Shown: in pieces, positions 8,508-19,556 of the stretch | Layout: each line of letters begins with the position of its first letter | How positions within the stretch are numbered: position 1 is the stretch's first letter | From: a virus | Strand: one strand, 5' to 3' | IMG/VR virus record: IMGVR_UViG_3300027770_000317 | Coordinates: 1-20,119 of that record | Length of the DNA stretch: 20,119 bases | Program-made: the position numbers and the translations under genes | The notes under the pieces: model-generated | Told to the model about the DNA's origin: nothing | What the model saw: only the letters and a program-made list of their open reading frames with translations | Database searches by the model: none

Positions 8508-8896
8508 TGAAGGAAAGCCAGCTTCAATTGGCCGTGACGAAGTGGCTGACCTACCATAGAATCGTTTGGTGGCGTATGCCTCTGGGCGCGATAATTCATA
8601 GTGTCGGCGGAAAACAGATTTTTCGAAAAAATCCCTTAAAAGGGTTCCCGGACATTGCCGGAATATGCCAAGGAAAAGAGCGCGGTAGATTTTTTTCCCT
8701 TGAGTTAAAATCTGATTCTGGCCGCATGACCTTAGAACAAAAACACTGGCAGAATGAAATCATATCAGCCGGTGGATTTCATGCAGTCATCAAGTCAATC
8801 GACGACTTGGAATCAGTCATGGTTGAATGGGGTGAACACTCCGGAAAATTCTTGGTTGGTAAAAATAAACATTTACCCGAACGTAAAAATAAGTAA
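8507..8896 (+). CDS. VRR-NUC domain nuclease
   Basis: A 129-residue protein, the typical size of stand-alone phage VRR-NUC proteins. The PD-(D/E)XK core is intact: KGFPDIAG (D49), FFSLELKSDSG with E66 and K68, then LEQKHWQNEIISAGGFHAVI as in the family (..Q..w...l...Gg...vv.s.dd). VRR-NUC enzymes cut branched DNA and act as Holliday-junction resolvases. Here it would resolve intermediates made by the RecE-like nuclease and ERF annealing protein. It starts in TAATG. It is the last gene before the structured non-coding segment. Confidence 0.88.
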   Translation: MKESQLQLAVTKWLTYHRIVWWRMPLGAIIHSVGGKQIFRKNPLKGFPDIAGICQGKERGRFFSLELKSDSGRMTLEQKHWQNEIISAGGFHAVIKSIDDLESVMVEWGEHSGKFLVGKNKHLPERKNK

Positions 8897-8900
8897 AATG

Positions 8901-9013
8901 AAACCCGATCTAAAAAAGCAGAGTTGAGGTGCTTTCGATAGAACGGGTTTCGGTGCTGGAGGACACGATTTGGAAAATACCAAATTCCTTCCAATACTGT
9001 CAAGCCAGGGCGA
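8901..9013 (+). ncRNA. Putative structured non-coding RNA, 5' segment
   Basis: No credible gene lies between 8897 and 9056, but the strand folds well. One arm is a long hairpin with 7-bp base AAACCCG/CGGGTTT (8901-8907 with 8944-8950), then ATC/GAT, then AAAGCA/TGCTTT closing a 9-base loop. A second domain has ATTTGG/CCAAAT (8968-8973 with 8980-8985) within a GGA..TCC helix reaching to about 8994. It ends in the 18-base repeat that recurs at 9797-9814 behind the next gene. I read it as the first part of an RNA continued at 9798-10250. It could instead be an independent leader. The strand is inferred from the neighbouring genes. Confidence 0.5.
8996..9013. repeat. 18-base direct repeat, left copy, flanking the PAPS-reductase-like gene
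   Basis: ACTGTCAAGCCAGGGCGA, which matches the copy at 9797-9814 at 16 of 18 positions. The invariant core is GCCAGGGCGA. The two copies bracket the PP-loop gene and lie at its junctions with the structured segments. Confidence 0.65.
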
Positions 9014-9056: not shown

Positions 9057-9797
9057 ATGGATAAAGCAACAAAAAGAGTTGTTTGTTGGTTTTCAGCTGG
9101 TGTTACCAGTGCTGTTGCGGTCAAACTTGCAAAAGAACAAGGTCCGGTAACAATTGCCTATTGTGACACCGGCGCAGAACACGTTGATAATTTACGTTTT
9201 ATTGCCGATTGCGAAAAATGGTTTAATCAAAAAATAATTATACTTCGTTCAAAAAAGTACGCCAGCGTTTGGGAGGTTTTTGAAAAAACCAGATATTTGA
9301 GCGGCGTTAATGGCGCAAGATGCACTACCGAAATGAAGAAACTAGTGCGACGAAACTTCGAAGACTTAAATAACGATTTACAGGTTTTCGGATTTGACGC
9401 TACCGAGAAAAAACGCGCAGATAAATTTTTAGCAAATAATCCAGAAGTAACCGCATGGTTTCCTTTAATAGAGCAAAACTTAACAAAACAAGACTGCATA
9501 GACAAAATATTAAGCGCAGGCATAAATATTCCTGAAATGTATAGACTTGGTTACAAGAATAATAATTGTATTGGATGCGTTAAAGGCCAGGCTGGTTACT
9601 GGAATAAAATTAGACTTGATTTCCCGGAAGTGTTTGACCGTATGGCGAAACAAGAGCGCGAACTAAATGCCGCAATTTGTAAAAGTTATGCAAAAGATGG
9701 GAAAAGAAAAAAGGTTTTTTTGGATGAATTGCCGTTAGATATGGGCCGCTATGAATCCGAAATTGAAATTAAATGTGGCTTAATTTGTGGGGAATAA
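9057..9797 (+). CDS. PAPS-reductase-like PP-loop protein (adenine nucleotide alpha-hydrolase family)
   Basis: A 246-residue protein. The N-terminal PP-loop is present in a modified form (WFSAGVTSAVA, residues 11-21, in place of the usual SGGxxS), followed by TIAYCDTGAEH (family pattern: D/N-T-G), GARCTTEMKK with Cys89, and GFDATEKKRAD. A second half holds NNNCIGCVKGQAGYWNK (Cys171, Cys174) and a C-terminal CGLIC (Cys240, Cys244), which could form a metal or Fe-S site. Phage members are often named phosphoadenosine phosphosulfate reductase, but real PAPS reduction is doubtful. Nucleotide or tRNA thiolation, or DNA-modification chemistry as in DndC relatives, is equally possible. No clear Shine-Dalgarno precedes ATG. 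The codons are richer in A and T than those of the neighbours, and the gene sits between repeats inside a structured segment, all suggesting later insertion. Confidence 0.82.
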   Translation: MDKATKRVVCWFSAGVTSAVAVKLAKEQGPVTIAYCDTGAEHVDNLRFIADCEKWFNQKIIILRSKKYASVWEVFEKTRYLSGVNGARCTTEMKKLVRRNFEDLNNDLQVFGFDATEKKRADKFLANNPEVTAWFPLIEQNLTKQDCIDKILSAGINIPEMYRLGYKNNNCIGCVKGQAGYWNKIRLDFPEVFDRMAKQERELNAAICKSYAKDGKRKKVFLDELPLDMGRYESEIEIKCGLICGE

Positions 9798-12873: not shown

Positions 12874-13314
12874 GTGAAAAAGAGACAAAAAATAACCGAC
12901 GGCTTGTATCCAGGCGACGATGTAATTCCAAAGCCGTTGCCTATGGGCCGCAAGCAAATCGAAATTGATATGGAACAATTAGAAAATTTGGCAAAACTTA
13001 GGCCGTCGCTTGCGGATTGCGCGGCGTTTTTTAAATGCAGCGAAGACACTATTACGCAAATTATAAAACGTAAATTTAATAAAACATTTACGGTCTTTAT
13101 TAATGAACAGGTTGCTCATACAAAATCGGAGTTATTACAAAAAGCATTAAGTGAGGCTTTCCGCGAAACGCCGAATACAAAAATGTTGGATTTGTGCCTG
13201 AAAAATTATTGCGGCTGGAGCGACAAAATCGAAAACGGAATCCACGGCCAGGTCGCAATTTCTCATGCTCCAATCGTTGTTTTTGCATTGGACGGTAATG
13301 ACGACAACGAATAA
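12874..13314 (+). CDS. terS: Terminase small subunit
   Basis: A 146-residue protein starting at GTG with CGGGGGATAAACT upstream. Residues ~45-69 (LADCAAFFKCSEDTITQIIK) form a homeodomain-like HTH. They are followed by a helical oligomerisation region and NTKMLDLCLKNYCGWSDK (101-118), which matches the N-T-K-M-(L/I)-x-x-x-(L/G)-K-N-x-x-G-(W/Q)-S-D-K signature of small terminase subunits. TerS recognises the packaging site on the phage genome and delivers DNA to TerL. It overlaps the TerL gene by 17 bases, as in many phages, and opens the late packaging operon. Confidence 0.88.
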   Translation: MKKRQKITDGLYPGDDVIPKPLPMGRKQIEIDMEQLENLAKLRPSLADCAAFFKCSEDTITQIIKRKFNKTFTVFINEQVAHTKSELLQKALSEAFRETPNTKMLDLCLKNYCGWSDKIENGIHGQVAISHAPIVVFALDGNDDNE

Positions 13315-14500
13315 AATAAAAATAACTGTCCCAAAAAAATACAGGACTTTAACGAAGCCTAACCGCTACCACGTTTTTTATGGCGGTCGAGGGTCGGCGA
13401 AATCGCATAGCGTTGCGAGGTATTTAGTTTGTCGCGCCTTGGAAAAGAAAACCAAATTCCTTTGCACGCGGGAATTTCAGGTTTCTATTGGTGACTCGGT
13501 TCACAAGCTACTATCAGACGTTATCGCGGATAGCGGATTGTCGCCATGGTTCCGGGTAAAGAATCAGGAAATCGAATGTCATAACGGCAGTTCGTTCATT
13601 TTCAAAGGACTTGCCCATAATATAGACAGTATTAAAAGTATCGAAGGCGTTGATGTTTGCTGGGTCGAGGAAGCCGACAAGGTTAGCGCAAAATCTTGGG
13701 ACATCCTGATACCGACTATCCGAAACCCTGACAGTAAAATCATCATCACGTTCAATCCCTGTTTTGACAACGACCCGACGTTTCAGCGGTTCATTGTGTC
13801 GCCCCCACCGGAAGCGATTGTTCAAAAAGTTAGCTGGCTAGATAATCCGCATTTTCCTGAAATCCTTCGCGGAGAAATGGAACACTGCAAGGCGACCGAT
13901 TACGATAAATATCTTCATATTTGGGAAGGCAATACCCTTTCATATTCCGACGCTTTGATTTTCAAAGGAAAATATTTTGTCGAGGATTTCGAGGCCGGTT
14001 CAGGCGAACATTTCCGTTTCGGTGCGGATTGGGGATTTGCCAAGGACCCCTCGACGCTTGTTAGGTGCTTTGTTCGTAATGAAAATTTATACATTGACCA
14101 TGAAGCCTATGGGCATGGGGTCGAGTTGACCGAGCTACCCGAATTTTTTAGATCGGTTCCAGAAAGCACAAAATGGAAGATTCTGGGCGATTGTGCAAGA
14201 CCGGAAACAATCTCATTCTTGAAAAACTTGAACTGGAATATCGAGGCCGCGCCAAAATGGTCTGGCAGTGTTGAGGATGGAATTGAATTCATCCGGTCGT
14301 TCAAAAAAATTATCATTCATCCAAGATGTAAAAACACTTTGGCCGAATTTTCTTCATACAGGTATAAAGTAGACAAGCGCACCGATGAAATTCTTCCAGT
14401 TGTTATGGATGAACAGAATCACATTATTGACGCAATCAGGTATGCTCTAAGCAATCTAATCAAGCGAAAAACCACAATCTATGATTCTGGATTTTTCTAA
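13298..14500 (+). CDS. terL: Terminase large subunit (PBSX-like)
   Basis: A 400-residue protein. The ATPase domain shows Walker A GGRGSAKS (residues 29-36), Walker B VCWVEEAD (120-127) and the coupling motif TFNP (151-154). The nuclease domain has the acidic residues in FGADWGFAKDPS (Asp244), LGDCARPE (Asp298) and HIIDAIRYAL (Asp378). This composition is that of the PBSX/P27-type large terminases that package by a headful or site-specific mechanism. The start is the ATG at 13298 with GGACGG upstream, which removes 11 non-conserved residues of a longer frame starting at 13265 inside terS. It is complete and followed 18 bases later by the portal gene. Confidence 0.96.
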   Translation: MTTTNKIKITVPKKYRTLTKPNRYHVFYGGRGSAKSHSVARYLVCRALEKKTKFLCTREFQVSIGDSVHKLLSDVIADSGLSPWFRVKNQEIECHNGSSFIFKGLAHNIDSIKSIEGVDVCWVEEADKVSAKSWDILIPTIRNPDSKIIITFNPCFDNDPTFQRFIVSPPPEAIVQKVSWLDNPHFPEILRGEMEHCKATDYDKYLHIWEGNTLSYSDALIFKGKYFVEDFEAGSGEHFRFGADWGFAKDPSTLVRCFVRNENLYIDHEAYGHGVELTELPEFFRSVPESTKWKILGDCARPETISFLKNLNWNIEAAPKWSGSVEDGIEFIRSFKKIIIHPRCKNTLAEFSSYRYKVDKRTDEILPVVMDEQNHIIDAIRYALSNLIKRKTTIYDSGFF

Positions 14501-14518: not shown

Positions 14519-15901
14519 ATGGCGCGACCAAAAAATAAAGAAACGCAAACCGCTCGAATGAATAGCCTCAGCGATTTCGTGGAAGGTGTCGCAGGCGGTG
14601 GACTAGGATTTGGCGCGGAACTAAGCCAAGCGAATACGCTCGCATGGAATAACCGTTGGTCATCCGTTACCCTTAATCGTTCGCTTATTACAGAATTGTA
14701 TCAGGAGCATGGCATTGTCCAGGTTCTAACGGATCAGCCGGTTGACGACGCATTGCGCGGCGGTCTAACGATCACCTGCGATGAATTTGACGACGTTGAC
14801 TTGAAAAAATTGACCCAGTATATTGATGAAAACAATATCTTGCTGACTTATGCTCAGGCCGTAAAATGGGGAAGGCTCTTTGGTGGCGGAGCCGTCATCA
14901 TTAATTCCGGCCAGCCTACAGACAAGCCTTTGCAAATTGAAAAAATCACTCCTGAAACAGAACTAGAATTTTACGCAGCCGACCGTTGGGAAATGTCCTA
15001 TATGCCGGCAGGTATGGGCGCACTTGATCAGTTTGAAAAAGACGACAGGGAATGTCCCTTCAACTACTACGGCCACAAACTTCATAAGTCGCACGTTCTA
15101 AAACTCAACGGCAAGGCCGCGCCTTCCCTGATTCGTGGTCAATTCGGAGGTTGGGGAGTCAGCGAACTAGAGCGACTTGTCAGGCCGTATAATGCGTTTT
15201 TGAAACATCAAAACGTGATTTTCGAATTGATGGACGAATCAAAAGTCGATGTGTTCAAGATTCAGGGTTTCAATTCCGCTATTGCATCCCGCGATGGGGC
15301 GCAGCTAACCGCTCGAAGAATCGCGGCGGCGGCAAAAATCAAAAACTATCAAAACGCATTGGTCGTCGATAAAGAAGACGAATACGAACAAAAGGTAATG
15401 TCGTTTGGTGGTCTGTCCGAAATCTTACAGCAAATCAGAATCGACCTTGCATCGGAGTGTCGTATGCCGATGACTAAGCTGTTCGGCATTAGTTCAGCCG
15501 GATTCAATTCCGGTGAAGACGACATCGAGAATTACAACGCGATGATCGAGACGGAAATCAGATCAAAAATTAAGCAGGGTTTGCTGCTTATGCTCAAACT
15601 TTCTTGTCAAAAAGTGTTTGGATTCGTGCCGGAATCAATCGGGTTCGAATATAAACCACTACGCATGATGACGAATAAAGAAGAATCGGAAATGAAAACC
15701 GCTGCTTTGTCTAGGTGTCTTGAGGCTATGCGCTCTGGACTTCTAACAGCTAAAGGGTGCGTCGAACAAATCAACGCCAGCAAAGTTTTCCCGGTCGATG
15801 TGAATGAGAACGAAGCGATTGAGCAAGACGAAATGGACGATATGGCAGTAGGGACAAAAGATGTCGAGGCCGAATCCCAAGGCGGTTACGACGCGGAATG
15901 A
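14519..15901 (+). CDS. Portal protein, DUF1073 type
   Basis: A 460-residue protein directly behind terL. The N-terminal half carries the DUF1073 portal pattern: ITELYQEHGIVQVLTDQPVD, then DALRGGLTI, AVKWGRLFGGGAVI, then FYAADRWEMSY and later SSAGFNSGEDDIENYNAMIE, the last being typical of portal crown/stem regions. The protein forms the dodecameric ring through which DNA enters and leaves the head. The C-terminus is acidic (NENEAIEQDEMDDMA). The N-terminal domain family is also listed under the name anti-CBASS Acb1-like, but this gene is a portal by position and length. It overlaps the MuF gene by ATGA. Confidence 0.88.
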   Translation: MARPKNKETQTARMNSLSDFVEGVAGGGLGFGAELSQANTLAWNNRWSSVTLNRSLITELYQEHGIVQVLTDQPVDDALRGGLTITCDEFDDVDLKKLTQYIDENNILLTYAQAVKWGRLFGGGAVIINSGQPTDKPLQIEKITPETELEFYAADRWEMSYMPAGMGALDQFEKDDRECPFNYYGHKLHKSHVLKLNGKAAPSLIRGQFGGWGVSELERLVRPYNAFLKHQNVIFELMDESKVDVFKIQGFNSAIASRDGAQLTARRIAAAAKIKNYQNALVVDKEDEYEQKVMSFGGLSEILQQIRIDLASECRMPMTKLFGISSAGFNSGEDDIENYNAMIETEIRSKIKQGLLLMLKLSCQKVFGFVPESIGFEYKPLRMMTNKEESEMKTAALSRCLEAMRSGLLTAKGCVEQINASKVFPVDVNENEAIEQDEMDDMAVGTKDVEAESQGGYDAE

Positions 15902-16905
15902 GAAAAATACTAAAACCAATAGAGCCTAAAAACGCATGGTCAGCCGCTTTGCAGAAATGCCTAGAAGCCGCGATCAAAGAAGTTATTTATGACCCGTTGA
16001 TAACCGACTTCGAAGAAACGGTTTCGGAGAACGCAAAAACATCGCCGCTCATCGAAGCGATTAAAAAAGGAACAGTGAACTACCGGGGCGACAAATTCCA
16101 GGCTAAAAAATGGAACGCGACGTTATCAAGGGAATTGAAATCTATCGGCGCGAAGTGGCTTGCGAAAGGTAACGCTTACGTCCTTCCGTTGCCAAGGATG
16201 CCTACAGATTTGGCCGTCGCAGTCACGGCAAGCCAAGCCGTCGACAAAACAATTCTCGAGAAATTCCTGCAAAAAATTTCTGATATGCCAAAGGCCATGC
16301 TCGAAAAAATCAAGGTTCTTGACCTTGAGAAATATTCGTCCAAGGTGTCAAATAAGACTTCCGCTGCTTTTAAAAAAACGGTTCTCGATGTCATGGCGGT
16401 TCAGCCAAACTTAACGCAAGAGCAACGAATTTATGTCGATGAGGCATACGTTACTACCGTAACGAAGCCAATTCTAACAACGTTGGACAAGAAATTCCGT
16501 GAAAACATCGACAAAAGTCTTCTTTATTTCGCCGAAGAAGAAGTCGTTAAACTCCGCCAAATGGTTGAAGGTCATGTGTTCGCAGGGAAACCACGGTCAG
16601 AATTAATAAGGGAAATTGAGGGTCGCCTCGACATCAGCTACACTAGGGCAAAGTTTATAGCTAGACAAGAAACGGCACTTTATACAGCGCAATTAAAAGA
16701 ATCGCAGTATCGAGCCTCTGGCATCAAGAAGTATAAATGGATGACGGTTGGGGATGGCGCAGTCAGACATGATCATAAGATTTTGAATCGTCGCGTGTTT
16801 GATTGGATTAATCCGCCAATAGTCGATGAGGCTACCGGAAGGCGCGGTCATCCAGGGGAAGATTTTAATTGCCGGTGTACGGCATCACCAATAGTGGAGT
16901 TTTAA
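15898..16905 (+). CDS. Minor head protein, MuF-like (phage Mu gpF domain)
   Basis: A 335-residue protein coupled by ATGA to the portal. The C-terminal ~100 residues are the MuF domain: ARQETALYTAQLKESQYRAS, then KYKWMTVGDGAVRHDHKILN, WINPP, GHPGEDFNCRCTASPIV with the paired Cys325 and Cys327. The first 240 residues are helical and Lys-rich and probably contact the portal and DNA. MuF proteins sit inside the head at the portal vertex and are sometimes ejected with the DNA. No toxin or enzyme fusion is present at the C-terminus. The gene ends just before a run of small tagged proteins. Confidence 0.9.
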   Translation: MRKILKPIEPKNAWSAALQKCLEAAIKEVIYDPLITDFEETVSENAKTSPLIEAIKKGTVNYRGDKFQAKKWNATLSRELKSIGAKWLAKGNAYVLPLPRMPTDLAVAVTASQAVDKTILEKFLQKISDMPKAMLEKIKVLDLEKYSSKVSNKTSAAFKKTVLDVMAVQPNLTQEQRIYVDEAYVTTVTKPILTTLDKKFRENIDKSLLYFAEEEVVKLRQMVEGHVFAGKPRSELIREIEGRLDISYTRAKFIARQETALYTAQLKESQYRASGIKKYKWMTVGDGAVRHDHKILNRRVFDWINPPIVDEATGRRGHPGEDFNCRCTASPIVEF

Positions 16906-16906
16906 A

Positions 16907-17179
16907 TTGAATACTTTTGATCCAAAAAACTGTCGATATTCGAGCCAGTGGCGAACGGATAATGCAACGAAGAACGATTGGTTTAAAATGATTGATACCA
17001 TTATGTATATGTGGGATCGAGTTGATGACAAAACGTTGCGCGGTCATGTGGCCCCCGATAGATATTTTGAATTAGAAAACGCGGTAAAAAAAATGGGCGG
17101 CGCAATTATAGAAAAAAAATTAGACCTAATCGCCGGTAAAGAATGGGTAAAAATTAGAGAGCCGAAAGGATTAAAATGA
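16907..17179 (+). CDS. Tagged small head-region protein A (N-terminal NTFDPKNCRYSS tag)
   Basis: A 90-residue protein starting at TTG with GTGGAG nine bases upstream, one base after the MuF stop. Residues 1-20 (MNTFDPKNCRYSSQWRTDNA) are the shared tag also found at 18807 and 19098. The body (MIDTIMYMWDRVDDKTLRGH, then YFELENAVKKMGGAIIEKKL) is helical and unrelated to the other tagged proteins. The tag is conserved in the DNA as well: 22 bases at 16923-16944 differ by one base from the copies at 18323 and 19117. The location between the minor head protein and the prohead-protease gene suggests a protein packed in or attached to the head. Function unknown. Confidence 0.75.
   Translation: MNTFDPKNCRYSSQWRTDNATKNDWFKMIDTIMYMWDRVDDKTLRGHVAPDRYFELENAVKKMGGAIIEKKLDLIAGKEWVKIREPKGLK
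16923..16944 (+). repeat. Tag-coding repeat, copy in protein A
   Basis: 22 bases coding for the core K-N-C-R-Y-S-S of the shared tag. It differs from the copies at 18323-18344 and 19117-19138 by one base (CGATAT instead of CGGTAT). Confidence 0.8.
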
Positions 17180-17679
17180 ACTGGCATCCAACTTTCAAAT
17201 GTTTTGTCGATTCTGGGTTAGCTCAAAACGCATTAGAAATACAGCCTCATCCTAAAGAGGTTGCGGATTTGGACGACGAACAAATTAAAAAAGTTAAAGA
17301 TCGTTTTAAAGAACAGCCTAAAAAATATGACTTAGATAAAATGGCAAAAAAAATTGCCGACCTAGAGCAAAATCTCAAAGCCGTAAAGTTAAAGGGAACG
17401 CCGGAACAATATCGCAAATTACAAGACGAACTAGAAAAATTTAGTCGTCAATATCAGTCTGTTTACAAAAACGAGCCAAAGATATCACAAAATTGGACCC
17501 AGTGGGCTTTAGACAAACAATTCAAAACTCGATTTAAAGAATTGAATTATTGCAAAATTCCGCCAAATCAATGGTCTTTTGTTTCGACGGAAACCAATCA
17601 ACCAATTGGTATGAGGTATGCGTCAAAAGTTGAATTGCTTGCCGACCTTGATCGTTTCGCTCGCGAATATGGGTTATAA
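17176..17679 (+). CDS. Unknown head-region protein with coiled coil
   Basis: A 167-residue Lys-rich protein starting with ATG in an ATGA overlap with the preceding gene. Residues ~28-98 are strongly helical and heptad-like (DDEQIKKVKDRFKEQPKKYD, then LDKMAKKIADLEQNLKAVKL, then YRKLQDELEKFSRQYQSVY). A C-terminal domain follows (YCKIPPNQWSFVSTETNQPI, then RYASKVELLADLDRFAREYG). It carries no N-terminal tag, unlike its neighbours. The sequence is not recognised. Its position suits a capsid-internal or scaffold-like protein. Confidence 0.7.
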   Translation: MNWHPTFKCFVDSGLAQNALEIQPHPKEVADLDDEQIKKVKDRFKEQPKKYDLDKMAKKIADLEQNLKAVKLKGTPEQYRKLQDELEKFSRQYQSVYKNEPKISQNWTQWALDKQFKTRFKELNYCKIPPNQWSFVSTETNQPIGMRYASKVELLADLDRFAREYGL

Positions 17680-17680
17680 A

Positions 17681-18640
17681 ATGCCGACCTATTTAGACTT
17701 AACAAAAAATCGTTATAGCTCCAGGCACGTTGTCGAGAACGCAAAAGACCCGACATCAACTAACGAAGGATTCAAAGGATTTGATGACCCTTGGAAGGTG
17801 ATGTCACCGGAAGACCGAAAGGAAGCCAATCGTTTGTTTAAGCTGACCATGAAAGCCTTTGCTTGTTCACCGAAACAAAAAGAGCTTTCCGACCAATTAC
17901 AAAAGATCCTCTCCAAATACGGTATCGGCGCTGAAATAAAACGTAACAGCGAATACCGGATGGATAATGATTCCGCATGGACTTTGTCGGCTATACGGTC
18001 GATTACAACAAAAGAACAGTTTGCCGAGGCTGTAAAGTGGTTTGTAAAAACCATGAAAGACGGGAATAGATTGACAGAAAGCCAGCACGAAGCAATCAAA
18101 GGAACGCTTGAAGACAAGGCCGAAAAACTTGGTTTGTCGGTGCGCGATTTAAACAGAAAGAACAATTCAAAAATCCCTAAAACTCAGGCCGAGTATGCTC
18201 TCGAAGTAAAAAAACTTGAGGACGAAGGATTAACTACGTCTGATGCTCAGGGCGAAGTTGATGCTAGGCTTATGTCGGCAGGGTACGACGTTAATACATT
18301 AAAAAAAATCGACAAAAAATTAGCAAAAAACTGTCGGTATTCGAGTCAGTTTGCCCATCGATTTAAAGTTAACGAATCCATAAAAGAGTCTCGCGAGAGG
18401 GGCTTTAACGATGCAATGCTGGCTGTTTCAAACGTTCTGCAATCATGCAAATGGAAAATACAAAGCAAAAAAATAAAGCCTCCGTATGCTACTTTGATTT
18501 GTGTTCCAGAAACCGAACACAGCGAACCTATGCGGTTTGTTAGTAACAAAATAAATAGTATATTTGTTGACGCGAAGGTAAAATCTTTGTCTCAAACCTT
18601 CAAAGCAGAAATCGAAATAATTATAAGTCCACTAGGATAA
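17681..18640 (+). CDS. Multi-tag head-region protein B (three tag-like elements)
   Basis: A 319-residue protein. ATG at 17681 directly follows the previous stop. A longer frame from 17618 would add 21 residues lying inside the previous gene. The N-terminus carries a variant tag (K9-N-R-Y-S-S14, then VVENA). A partial tag, KRNSEYRMDND, occurs at residues 87-97, and a full core, AKNCRYSSQF, at 215-224. The last is coded by the same 22 bases as in the gene at 19098. The segments between the tags differ: an acidic helical part, a helical repeat-like part (LTESQHEAIKGTLEDKAEKL), and a C-terminal alpha/beta domain (RGFNDAMLAVSNVLQSCKWK, ending FKAEIEIIISPLG). It reads as several tagged proteins fused in one chain. 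Function unknown. Confidence 0.75.
   Translation: MPTYLDLTKNRYSSRHVVENAKDPTSTNEGFKGFDDPWKVMSPEDRKEANRLFKLTMKAFACSPKQKELSDQLQKILSKYGIGAEIKRNSEYRMDNDSAWTLSAIRSITTKEQFAEAVKWFVKTMKDGNRLTESQHEAIKGTLEDKAEKLGLSVRDLNRKNNSKIPKTQAEYALEVKKLEDEGLTTSDAQGEVDARLMSAGYDVNTLKKIDKKLAKNCRYSSQFAHRFKVNESIKESRERGFNDAMLAVSNVLQSCKWKIQSKKIKPPYATLICVPETEHSEPMRFVSNKINSIFVDAKVKSLSQTFKAEIEIIISPLG
18323..18344 (+). repeat. Tag-coding repeat inside protein B
   Basis: 22 bases identical to 19117-19138, here in the middle of a coding region and in the same reading frame (K-N-C-R-Y-S-S). An internal copy in frame argues for fusion or duplication of a tagged gene. Confidence 0.85.
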
Positions 18641-18652
18641 GAAGAATAAAAA

Positions 18653-18823
18653 ATGAATCGCGTCATGGAACAAAATATTGCCGAAAACTATGTGTTAAAA
18701 TTGGTCGTCGCAGCTTGCGAAGCTAAGGCCATTGACGAGATGTATTTAAGTCAAATAGTTGACGCTTTGATCGAGGCCGGTTGCGAAATAAATTTAGGGG
18801 ACGGATATGAACAACACCTTTGA
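18653..18823 (+). CDS. Small 56-residue protein between tagged genes
   Basis: A short frame with ATG preceded by AGGATAAGAAG, 12 bases after the stop of protein B, ending TGA 17 bases inside the next gene. The product (MNRVMEQNIAENYVLKLVVA, then EAKAIDEMYLSQIVDALIEA, then GCEINLGDGYEQHL) is a compact helical protein with no tag. It fills an otherwise empty 166-base gap, and the GGGGACGG of the next gene lies within it. Coding is likely, function unknown. Confidence 0.6.
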   Translation: MNRVMEQNIAENYVLKLVVAACEAKAIDEMYLSQIVDALIEAGCEINLGDGYEQHL

Positions 18824-19091
18824 CCCAAAAACTTGCAGGTTTTCGAGTCAATACCGGATGGATAATGGCAACGAAGAAATCAGACAAAAACTTGTTTCTA
18901 TTGTTACGCAATATGACCAGAAACAAGAAAAAAAAAGCAAAAGTTATAATCCTTACGCTTTGGCTCAAATGTTAGAATCCGCCAATGCCATCGCAAGTTT
19001 GATTCAAAAAGGAACGCCGGTCGATCAAGCTATCGACGAATATTTTTTGGATAGACTAGCCGATTTTGTAAAATCAAAAATGAGGAAATAA
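18807..19091 (+). CDS. Tagged small head-region protein C
   Basis: A 94-residue protein with AGGGGACGG before ATG. Residues 1-20 (MNNTFDPKTCRFSSQYRMDN) are the shared tag. The body is helical and Lys/Gln-rich (NEEIRQKLVSIVTQYDQKQE, then YNPYALAQMLESANAIASLI, then PVDQAIDEYFLDRLADFVKS). It has no similarity that I can see to the bodies of proteins A or D. It lies six bases before the next tagged gene, so they are co-expressed. Function unknown. Confidence 0.75.
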   Translation: MNNTFDPKTCRFSSQYRMDNGNEEIRQKLVSIVTQYDQKQEKKSKSYNPYALAQMLESANAIASLIQKGTPVDQAIDEYFLDRLADFVKSKMRK

Positions 19092-19097
19092 AAAACA

Positions 19098-19556
19098 ATG
19101 AACAACACTTTCGACCCAAAAAACTGTCGGTATTCGAGCGAGTATCGGATGGATAATGCTAACAACGAAACCGCTAATCCAAATAAATTAAAAGAACGAA
19201 TGTCAGTTCGTCTGAAATCTAACCCGTCTCAAACCGGAAAAATCAGATATTTTACCGATGACGGCGGAATAACAAAAGCGGTTGTCCTATGGGATAACGA
19301 CCCTACTTTCAAATTGGATGATTTAGCTTCTCTTGATTCTCTGATTGCTAAAAACGGAAAAACTAAATCAGCGGAAAACTCGCGCAAAACAAAAACAGAA
19401 ATTCAAAAAATGAGCATTGCGGAAATTTTGCAGGCCATAAGAACAAAATCATTGACCTATGCTGAAGTTGATGACGCCTTAGAAGAAATAAAAGAATTTT
19501 CTAAACTAGATCGTATTGGGGACGCATTAGCAAAAGACGACTTAAAAGGAAAATAA
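19098..19556 (+). CDS. Tagged small head-region protein D
   Basis: A 152-residue protein. ATG is preceded by GAGGAAATAAAAAACA. Residues 1-20 (MNNTFDPKNCRYSSEYRMDN) are the shared tag. Two parts follow. A small beta-rich segment (KIRYFTDDGGITKAVVLWDN) is flanked by SNPSQTG and PTFKLDDLASL and resembles an SH3-like fold. A helical C-terminus follows (MSIAEILQAIRTKSLTYAEV, then DDALEEIKEFSKLDRIG). It ends one base before the DUF2213 gene. Function unknown. Confidence 0.75.
   Translation: MNNTFDPKNCRYSSEYRMDNANNETANPNKLKERMSVRLKSNPSQTGKIRYFTDDGGITKAVVLWDNDPTFKLDDLASLDSLIAKNGKTKSAENSRKTKTEIQKMSIAEILQAIRTKSLTYAEVDDALEEIKEFSKLDRIGDALAKDDLKGK
19117..19138 (+). repeat. Tag-coding repeat, copy in protein D
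   Basis: 22 bases identical to 18323-18344, coding the tag core K-N-C-R-Y-S-S. The protein C copy near 18826-18848 is more diverged in DNA (ACTTGCAGGTTTTCGAG) but keeps the protein pattern. Confidence 0.85.

Follow-up and report, generated by a model that had tools for sequence, protein, structure and literature searches.

Unrelated small proteins encoded between the MuF and protease genes of a phage clade bear interchangeable N-terminal tags that probably target them to the capsid

Why should neighboring small genes of one phage begin with nearly the same stretch of codons when their products have nothing else in common? The question is raised by the window, the whole 20,119-base stretch of viral DNA analyzed here, in which such genes lie between those for a MuF protein and a prohead protease. 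A preliminary description, made from the letters alone, took the common N-terminus for a portable label that brings diverse cargo into the prohead. The features of the locus are listed below; an arrow marks a predicted cut or junction.

13304-14500, plus strand: terminase large subunit, context (Pfam Terminase_3, E 1.2e-41)
14519-15901, plus strand: portal protein, context (Pfam Phage_portal_3, E 7.3e-57)
15898-16905, plus strand: MuF head-morphogenesis protein, bordering the array on its left (Pfam Phage_Mu_F, E 5.8e-15)
16907-16963, plus strand: type-1 tag MNTFDPKNCRYSSQWRTDN, predicted cut DN↓A
16907-17179, plus strand: tagged ORF, 90 aa, TTG start, orphan basic body
17176-17229, plus strand: type-3 tag MNWHPTFKCFVDSGLAQN, predicted cut QN↓A; same N-terminus on other bodies in L004 and L007
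17176-17679, plus strand: ORF of 167 aa with the type-3 tag; body common to L087 (E 1.1e-32)
17681-17740, plus strand: type-2 tag MPTYLDLTKNRYSSRHVVEN, predicted cut EN↓A
17681-18640, plus strand: mosaic tagged ORF, 319 aa; one stretch of it stands alone as a tagged protein in L004
17942-17969, plus strand: internal tag remnant KRNSEYRMDN, inside the 17681 ORF
18326-18352, plus strand: internal tag remnant KNCRYSSQF, inside the 17681 ORF
18653-18823, plus strand: untagged acidic 56-aa protein, conserved in the L004 array (90% nucleotide identity)
18807-18866, plus strand: type-1 tag MNNTFDPKTCRFSSQYRMDN, predicted cut DN↓G
18807-19091, plus strand: tagged ORF, 94 aa
19098-19157, plus strand: type-1 tag MNNTFDPKNCRYSSEYRMDN, predicted cut DN↓A
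19098-19556, plus strand: tagged ORF, 152 aa
19558-20118, plus strand: N-terminal part of a DUF2213 head-maturation protease, bordering the array on its right (Pfam DUF2213, E 9.8e-9; phrog_530)

The ORFs at 16907, 18807 and 19098 start as previously described, with a type-1 consensus M[N]NTFDPKNCRYSSxYRxDN, and the ORF at 17681, which begins MPTYLDLTKNRYSSRHVVENAKD, does carry a variant, a second dialect of the form LDLTKNRYSS...EN. Two features go beyond the earlier account: the 17176 ORF, absent from its list, has a third interchangeable N-terminus (MNWHPTFKCFVDS...QN), and the 17681 protein is a mosaic: two tag remnants lie inside it, and across 62 residues it matches a tagged protein of L004, a related contig (E 1.4e-33). 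Searched against the window, the 19098 protein picks up the tag of 18807 (76%, residues 1-25, E 2.5e-9), that of 16907 (76%, residues 3-23, E 2.9e-7) and nothing else. Once the tags are removed, no window body matches another, as the preliminary description had it, and sequence searches of Pfam, PHROGs and the PDB gave no significant function for the bodies.

The tag was found in four other viral contigs, which belong to the same clade wherever the portal gene is covered. Across the five clade contigs, whose portals, where present, are 71-97% identical to the window's, many genes carry it, always (where covered) in the interval that the DUF2213 protease closes off. There are four type-1 tagged genes in L004, whose portal is 97% identical, and two tagged genes in L007 (MNTYNPxSCRYSSQW). 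Type-2 genes occur as a run of four in L008 (LDLTKNRYSSQW) and a set of three in L087, the latter immediately 5′ of its protease-scaffold, decoration and capsid genes. The type-3 N-terminus of 17176 sits on different bodies in L004 and L007. The bodies are mostly dissimilar, the exception being three L004 paralogues with a common C-terminal helical domain, so the search for further tagged N-termini returned not close copies with similar bodies but the opposite, more contigs with different ones. For one L004 tagged protein, AF2 predicted folded C-terminal helices behind 76 N-terminal residues of low confidence, and Foldseek found no match to the L004 three-helix model at E <= 0.001; the AF2 model of 19098 alone was poor.

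Outside this clade, a pattern search of 84,980 genome species gave 29 matches, none of which was confirmed, tblastn of 50,697 cultured phage records gave no match, and among 2.9 million viral contigs only the four clade contigs were found. A search for DUF2213 across two phyla (395 and 291 genomes) matched only the starting genomes, and we found no report of the tag in the open-licence literature. One clade member, L023, has an empty site, its protease frame beginning 11 bases past MuF. Because more distant relatives (L011-L018 and L110) have untagged genes in the MuF-protease interval, where covered, this interval is a general insertion spot. By eye, the cassettes there in L011, L012, L013, L014 and L110 (portals ~55-58% identical) are methyltransferase- or glycosyltransferase-like.

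Tags and bodies are exchangeable. The window's 17176 tag (MNWHPTFKCFVDSGLAQN↓A) and a tag of L087 (MLDLTKNRYSSQWRADN↓A) stand before the same body (E 1.1e-32), which thus has dialect 3 in one phage and dialect 2 in the other, joined in both at N↓A. This common body is under purifying selection (pS 0.73, pN 0.17, pN/pS about 0.23). The untagged 18653 gene is kept in L004, yet the cargo behind the next tag differs. Between phages, the three N-terminal dialects and the bodies change places at a single junction, usually N↓[A/S/G]. The acidic product of that untagged gene (window 18653-18823, L004 9076-9240) has 54-56 aa and a pI of about 4.1-4.2, and in both contigs its gene overlaps the start of the next tagged gene, the one whose body differs; it is possibly a chaperone or partner.

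The junction is recurrent: N[ASG] occurs 4-15 residues past the core in 18 of 20 tagged N-termini, as against 7.7% of 12-residue body windows. Four of the tagged N-termini (L004 8790 and 9230, L007 4556 and 4852) do not have the usual RxDN or its following A/S/G and instead have N[GSA] at +9/+10; the exceptions are L008 3910, with N↓D, and L004 7804, with no N[ASG]. Across 65 DUF2213 proteins, N[AS] is also 2.8-fold enriched in the scaffold tails (323 vs 113±9), but since the portal (1.7-fold) and the protease domain (1.55-fold) are enriched as well, we treat it as supportive only and not as a clean cleavage signature. These sequence patterns suggest that the DUF2213 protease probably cleaves after Asn (N↓A/S/G), removing the tag. 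In the window itself the contig ends before the protease's scaffold domain; the window (20118) and L004 (10254) stop at the same codon (..GGIKMFAKIW), the protease-scaffold boundary, which is probably an assembly break.

We consider it likely that the tag acts as a capsid-targeting propeptide at the N-terminus, bringing cargo into the prohead before the protease removes it. The tag would dock newly made cargo on the scaffold or capsid within the assembling prohead, the DUF2213 protease would then cut after Asn (N↓A/S/G) to release the body, and the freed body would remain in the head and might be ejected with the DNA. By analogy with the T4 internal proteins, the fast-turnover bodies would fit host-directed or counter-defense cargo.

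The capsid-targeting sequence (CTS) of phage T4 follows the pattern M-K-x-aromatic...I-x-E, with aromatic residues at positions 4 and 7 and I-x-E at 8-10. The window tags (MNNTFDPKNCRYSS...) are unrelated to that peptide, having an RYSS core instead, and their junctions have no L/I-x-E but N↓[ASG], in phages whose protease belongs to the DUF2213 family. In T4 the first 10 residues of IPIII serve as the targeting signal, with positions 4, 7, 8 and 10 important, and gp21 cleaves after L/I-X-E (PMC9026906). What the T4 CTS, borne by IPI-IPIII and Alt, has in common with our tags is a short N-terminal peptide on proteins whose mature regions diverge, a prohead protease in the phage, a short cleavage motif at which removal is predicted, and cargo that varies greatly among relatives (PMC9026906, PMC3012670); here too the same short N-terminus stands on unrelated, fast-changing bodies. 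The present genes differ, in addition, in being arrayed between MuF and the protease, in having several dialects in one clade and in that their packaging is a prediction. The N-terminal 30 residues of phage P1 DarB similarly suffice to bring a reporter into the capsid, although the P1 Dar proteins have no common N-terminal consensus (PMC9024508), whereas the label here is common to many proteins. MuF polymorphic toxins are likewise MuF-adjacent variable phage proteins, but here the variable proteins are separate genes, and the MuF domain lies at the C-terminus of the 335-aa MuF protein (residues 220-329, Pfam) with no toxin domain C-terminal to it. As proposed, the system works like the T4 CTS with its internal proteins and like the P1 DarB signal, yet lies outside the T4 family by both sequence and protease.

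An independent lineage offers a parallel. The MuF-protease interval of L046, whose portal is 42% identical, has three genes in a row that start MKFSLEKGKELYGSIANA, MKEFKEKFSIQKGQDNYGSIHNA and MKSHFSLKNGRKRYGSESVTNA and differ in their bodies. These N-termini carry KGKELYGS, KGQDNYGS and NGRKRYGS (motif KGKxxYGS), and the C-terminus of the DUF2213 protease-scaffold, conserved in this group as xRGKxRYGSxK, ends ARGKARYGSN in L046. When six head and packaging proteins were scanned with the L046/L094 tags, the scaffold C-terminus matched best (17.2, vs 10.5 for the next protein); with columns shuffled as a control, 4/600 shuffles reached the score (1/600 for the L046 tags alone). The scaffold motif pattern had eight plus-strand matches outside proteases and none on the minus strand. 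The motif is clade-limited, since three cultured phages with related portals do not have the RYGS scaffold end. A cultured relative, Bdellovibrio phage phi1422, does have it, with nothing inserted between its MuF and protease genes. A pattern for further L046-type tags matched no contig. Two small ORFs between terminase and portal contain scaffold-like sequence, ARGNKRYGKE at the very C-terminus in L050 (2918-3100) and IGKARYGRR internally in L081 (9663-9953).

The window's own tag was also considered as a copy of the scaffold C-terminus, with p 0.0005 at first, and failed once all head proteins were searched: 46/200 shuffles then reached the score for type 2, and the resemblance of type 1 is lower still. 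The best match of the combined tag profile is instead NFDxTNNRYVLxNYDE, a segment near the C-terminal side of the MCP (seen in the L087 capsid protein and the MCP alignment), with 0/200 shuffles reaching the score (7/200 and 32/200 for the dialects), and this segment outscores the scaffold C-terminus for the window-clade tags. Because the window-clade comparison is not significant and the MCP segment scores higher, the apparent mimicry of the scaffold, read from motif resemblance, is claimed for the L046 lineage only. That lineage is likened to the window clade by analogy and not through homology of their tags.

One body of L046/L094 belongs to PHROG 7595, a small protein present in many phages, though not found in the window, and gives a reference point with T4-like phages. 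In L046/L094 it follows the scaffold-like tags as ...YGSIHN↓AEYQGKKV and ...YGSVEN↓AEYQGKKV, and in the T4-like phage C48C1 it follows a T4-type sequence, MKKFKQYIDEG...ELTE↓AEYQGKKV; HTVC008M has ...LEE↓AEFQGKKV, Flavobacterium phage immuto has LDE↓ and Melnitz has MME↓. In untagged phages the body starts MAKYQG or MATYKG. We take the C48C1 N-terminus (MKKFKQYIDEG) to fit the T4 targeting pattern; it is the only targeting-like N-terminus found in ~126 of the 156 kb of that genome. Because the body starts at the same residue in every phage context compared, the L046 tag stands where T4-like phages put a targeting propeptide. In Roseobacter phage CRP-6, gp55 (L129 2435-3124), encoded a few genes upstream of the capsid gene, has a PHROG 7595-like domain N-terminal in a longer protein that is prohead-protease-like by eye.

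The cargo proposal of the preliminary description thus gains indirect support from the position of the genes, the scaffold-like tags of L046 and the T4-type body junction, packaging itself being inferred. A broader scheme is more tentative, and we would not be surprised if it proved wrong: DUF2213 phages may load interchangeable cargo by using copies or equivalents of the scaffold's capsid-binding peptide as a removable label, the labels would diverge into dialects, and cargo would move between families, even to T4-like phages, changing its label at a fixed junction.

The docking partner could differ from the scaffold, as the best match of the combined profile to the MCP segment indicates, and one might go further and suppose that the tag docks on the portal, MuF or a host target and that the proteins, unpackaged, do their work in the infected cell or at the neck. 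The position beside MuF is compatible with this, as is the MCP match (0/200 shuffles), but we think it unlikely, since it leaves unexplained the recurrent N↓[ASG] junction, the body found behind T4-type sequences at the same join, and the L046 tags that copy the scaffold C-terminus.

If the tag were mainly a DNA element, serving either as a block of homology at which cassettes are exchanged or in translation initiation, with the peptide incidental, exchange at the tag (as where the 18653 gene and its junction are kept in L004 and the cargo is not) and the fusion of 17681 with its internal tag remnants would be readily explained. The codons largely refute this reading, which we regard as very improbable. 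In the nine-codon core of the type-1 tags, pN is 0.026 and pS 0.727, the nine core codons of the L004 copies differ only synonymously (pN 0.00, pS 0.74), and the serine codons of the type-2 tags alternate between the AGC and TCN families. Within the tag, nucleotide identity is 0.79; it drops to 0.33 upstream and to 0.28-0.30 past the tag. Neither the synonymous sites nor the sequence upstream of the start, which is unrelated, shows conservation. The tag is thus under strong purifying selection at the peptide level, with near-saturated synonymous sites. The similarity in DNA that the preliminary description had remarked on is real, but it is a by-product of the conserved peptide, and any recombination there may be incidental. 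It is scarcely credible that the genes are decaying tandem duplicates of one ancestor whose N-terminus is the last recognizable part, since, although the three L004 copies with their common helical domain are true paralogues, the ORFs are intact, the 17176/L087 body is under purifying selection between phages, and the same body bears different tags.

Selection on the peptide, together with the tag swaps, the four further contigs and the differing bodies, gives the portable-label reading good support. If the tag is indeed a targeting propeptide, capsid targeting would have evolved independently in these phages; its consensus is explicit, its cleavage rule (N↓A/S/G) is predicted, and the label swaps form a natural record. 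The phages' choice of packed proteins would become directly testable, the packaged proteins of uncultured phages could be listed from sequence, and the label of ~20 residues could be used to load proteins into capsids.

Two further observations concern neighboring genes. In L079, the same translated stretch, RHRREHFVRRSYCMTDQ, precedes the ORFs at 8746-8964 and 9267-9497, a 5′ element repeated within an insert between portal and MuF. In the window, positions 2039-2851 on the minus strand, opposite to the phage genes, encode a papain-family peptidase-like product with a signal peptide.
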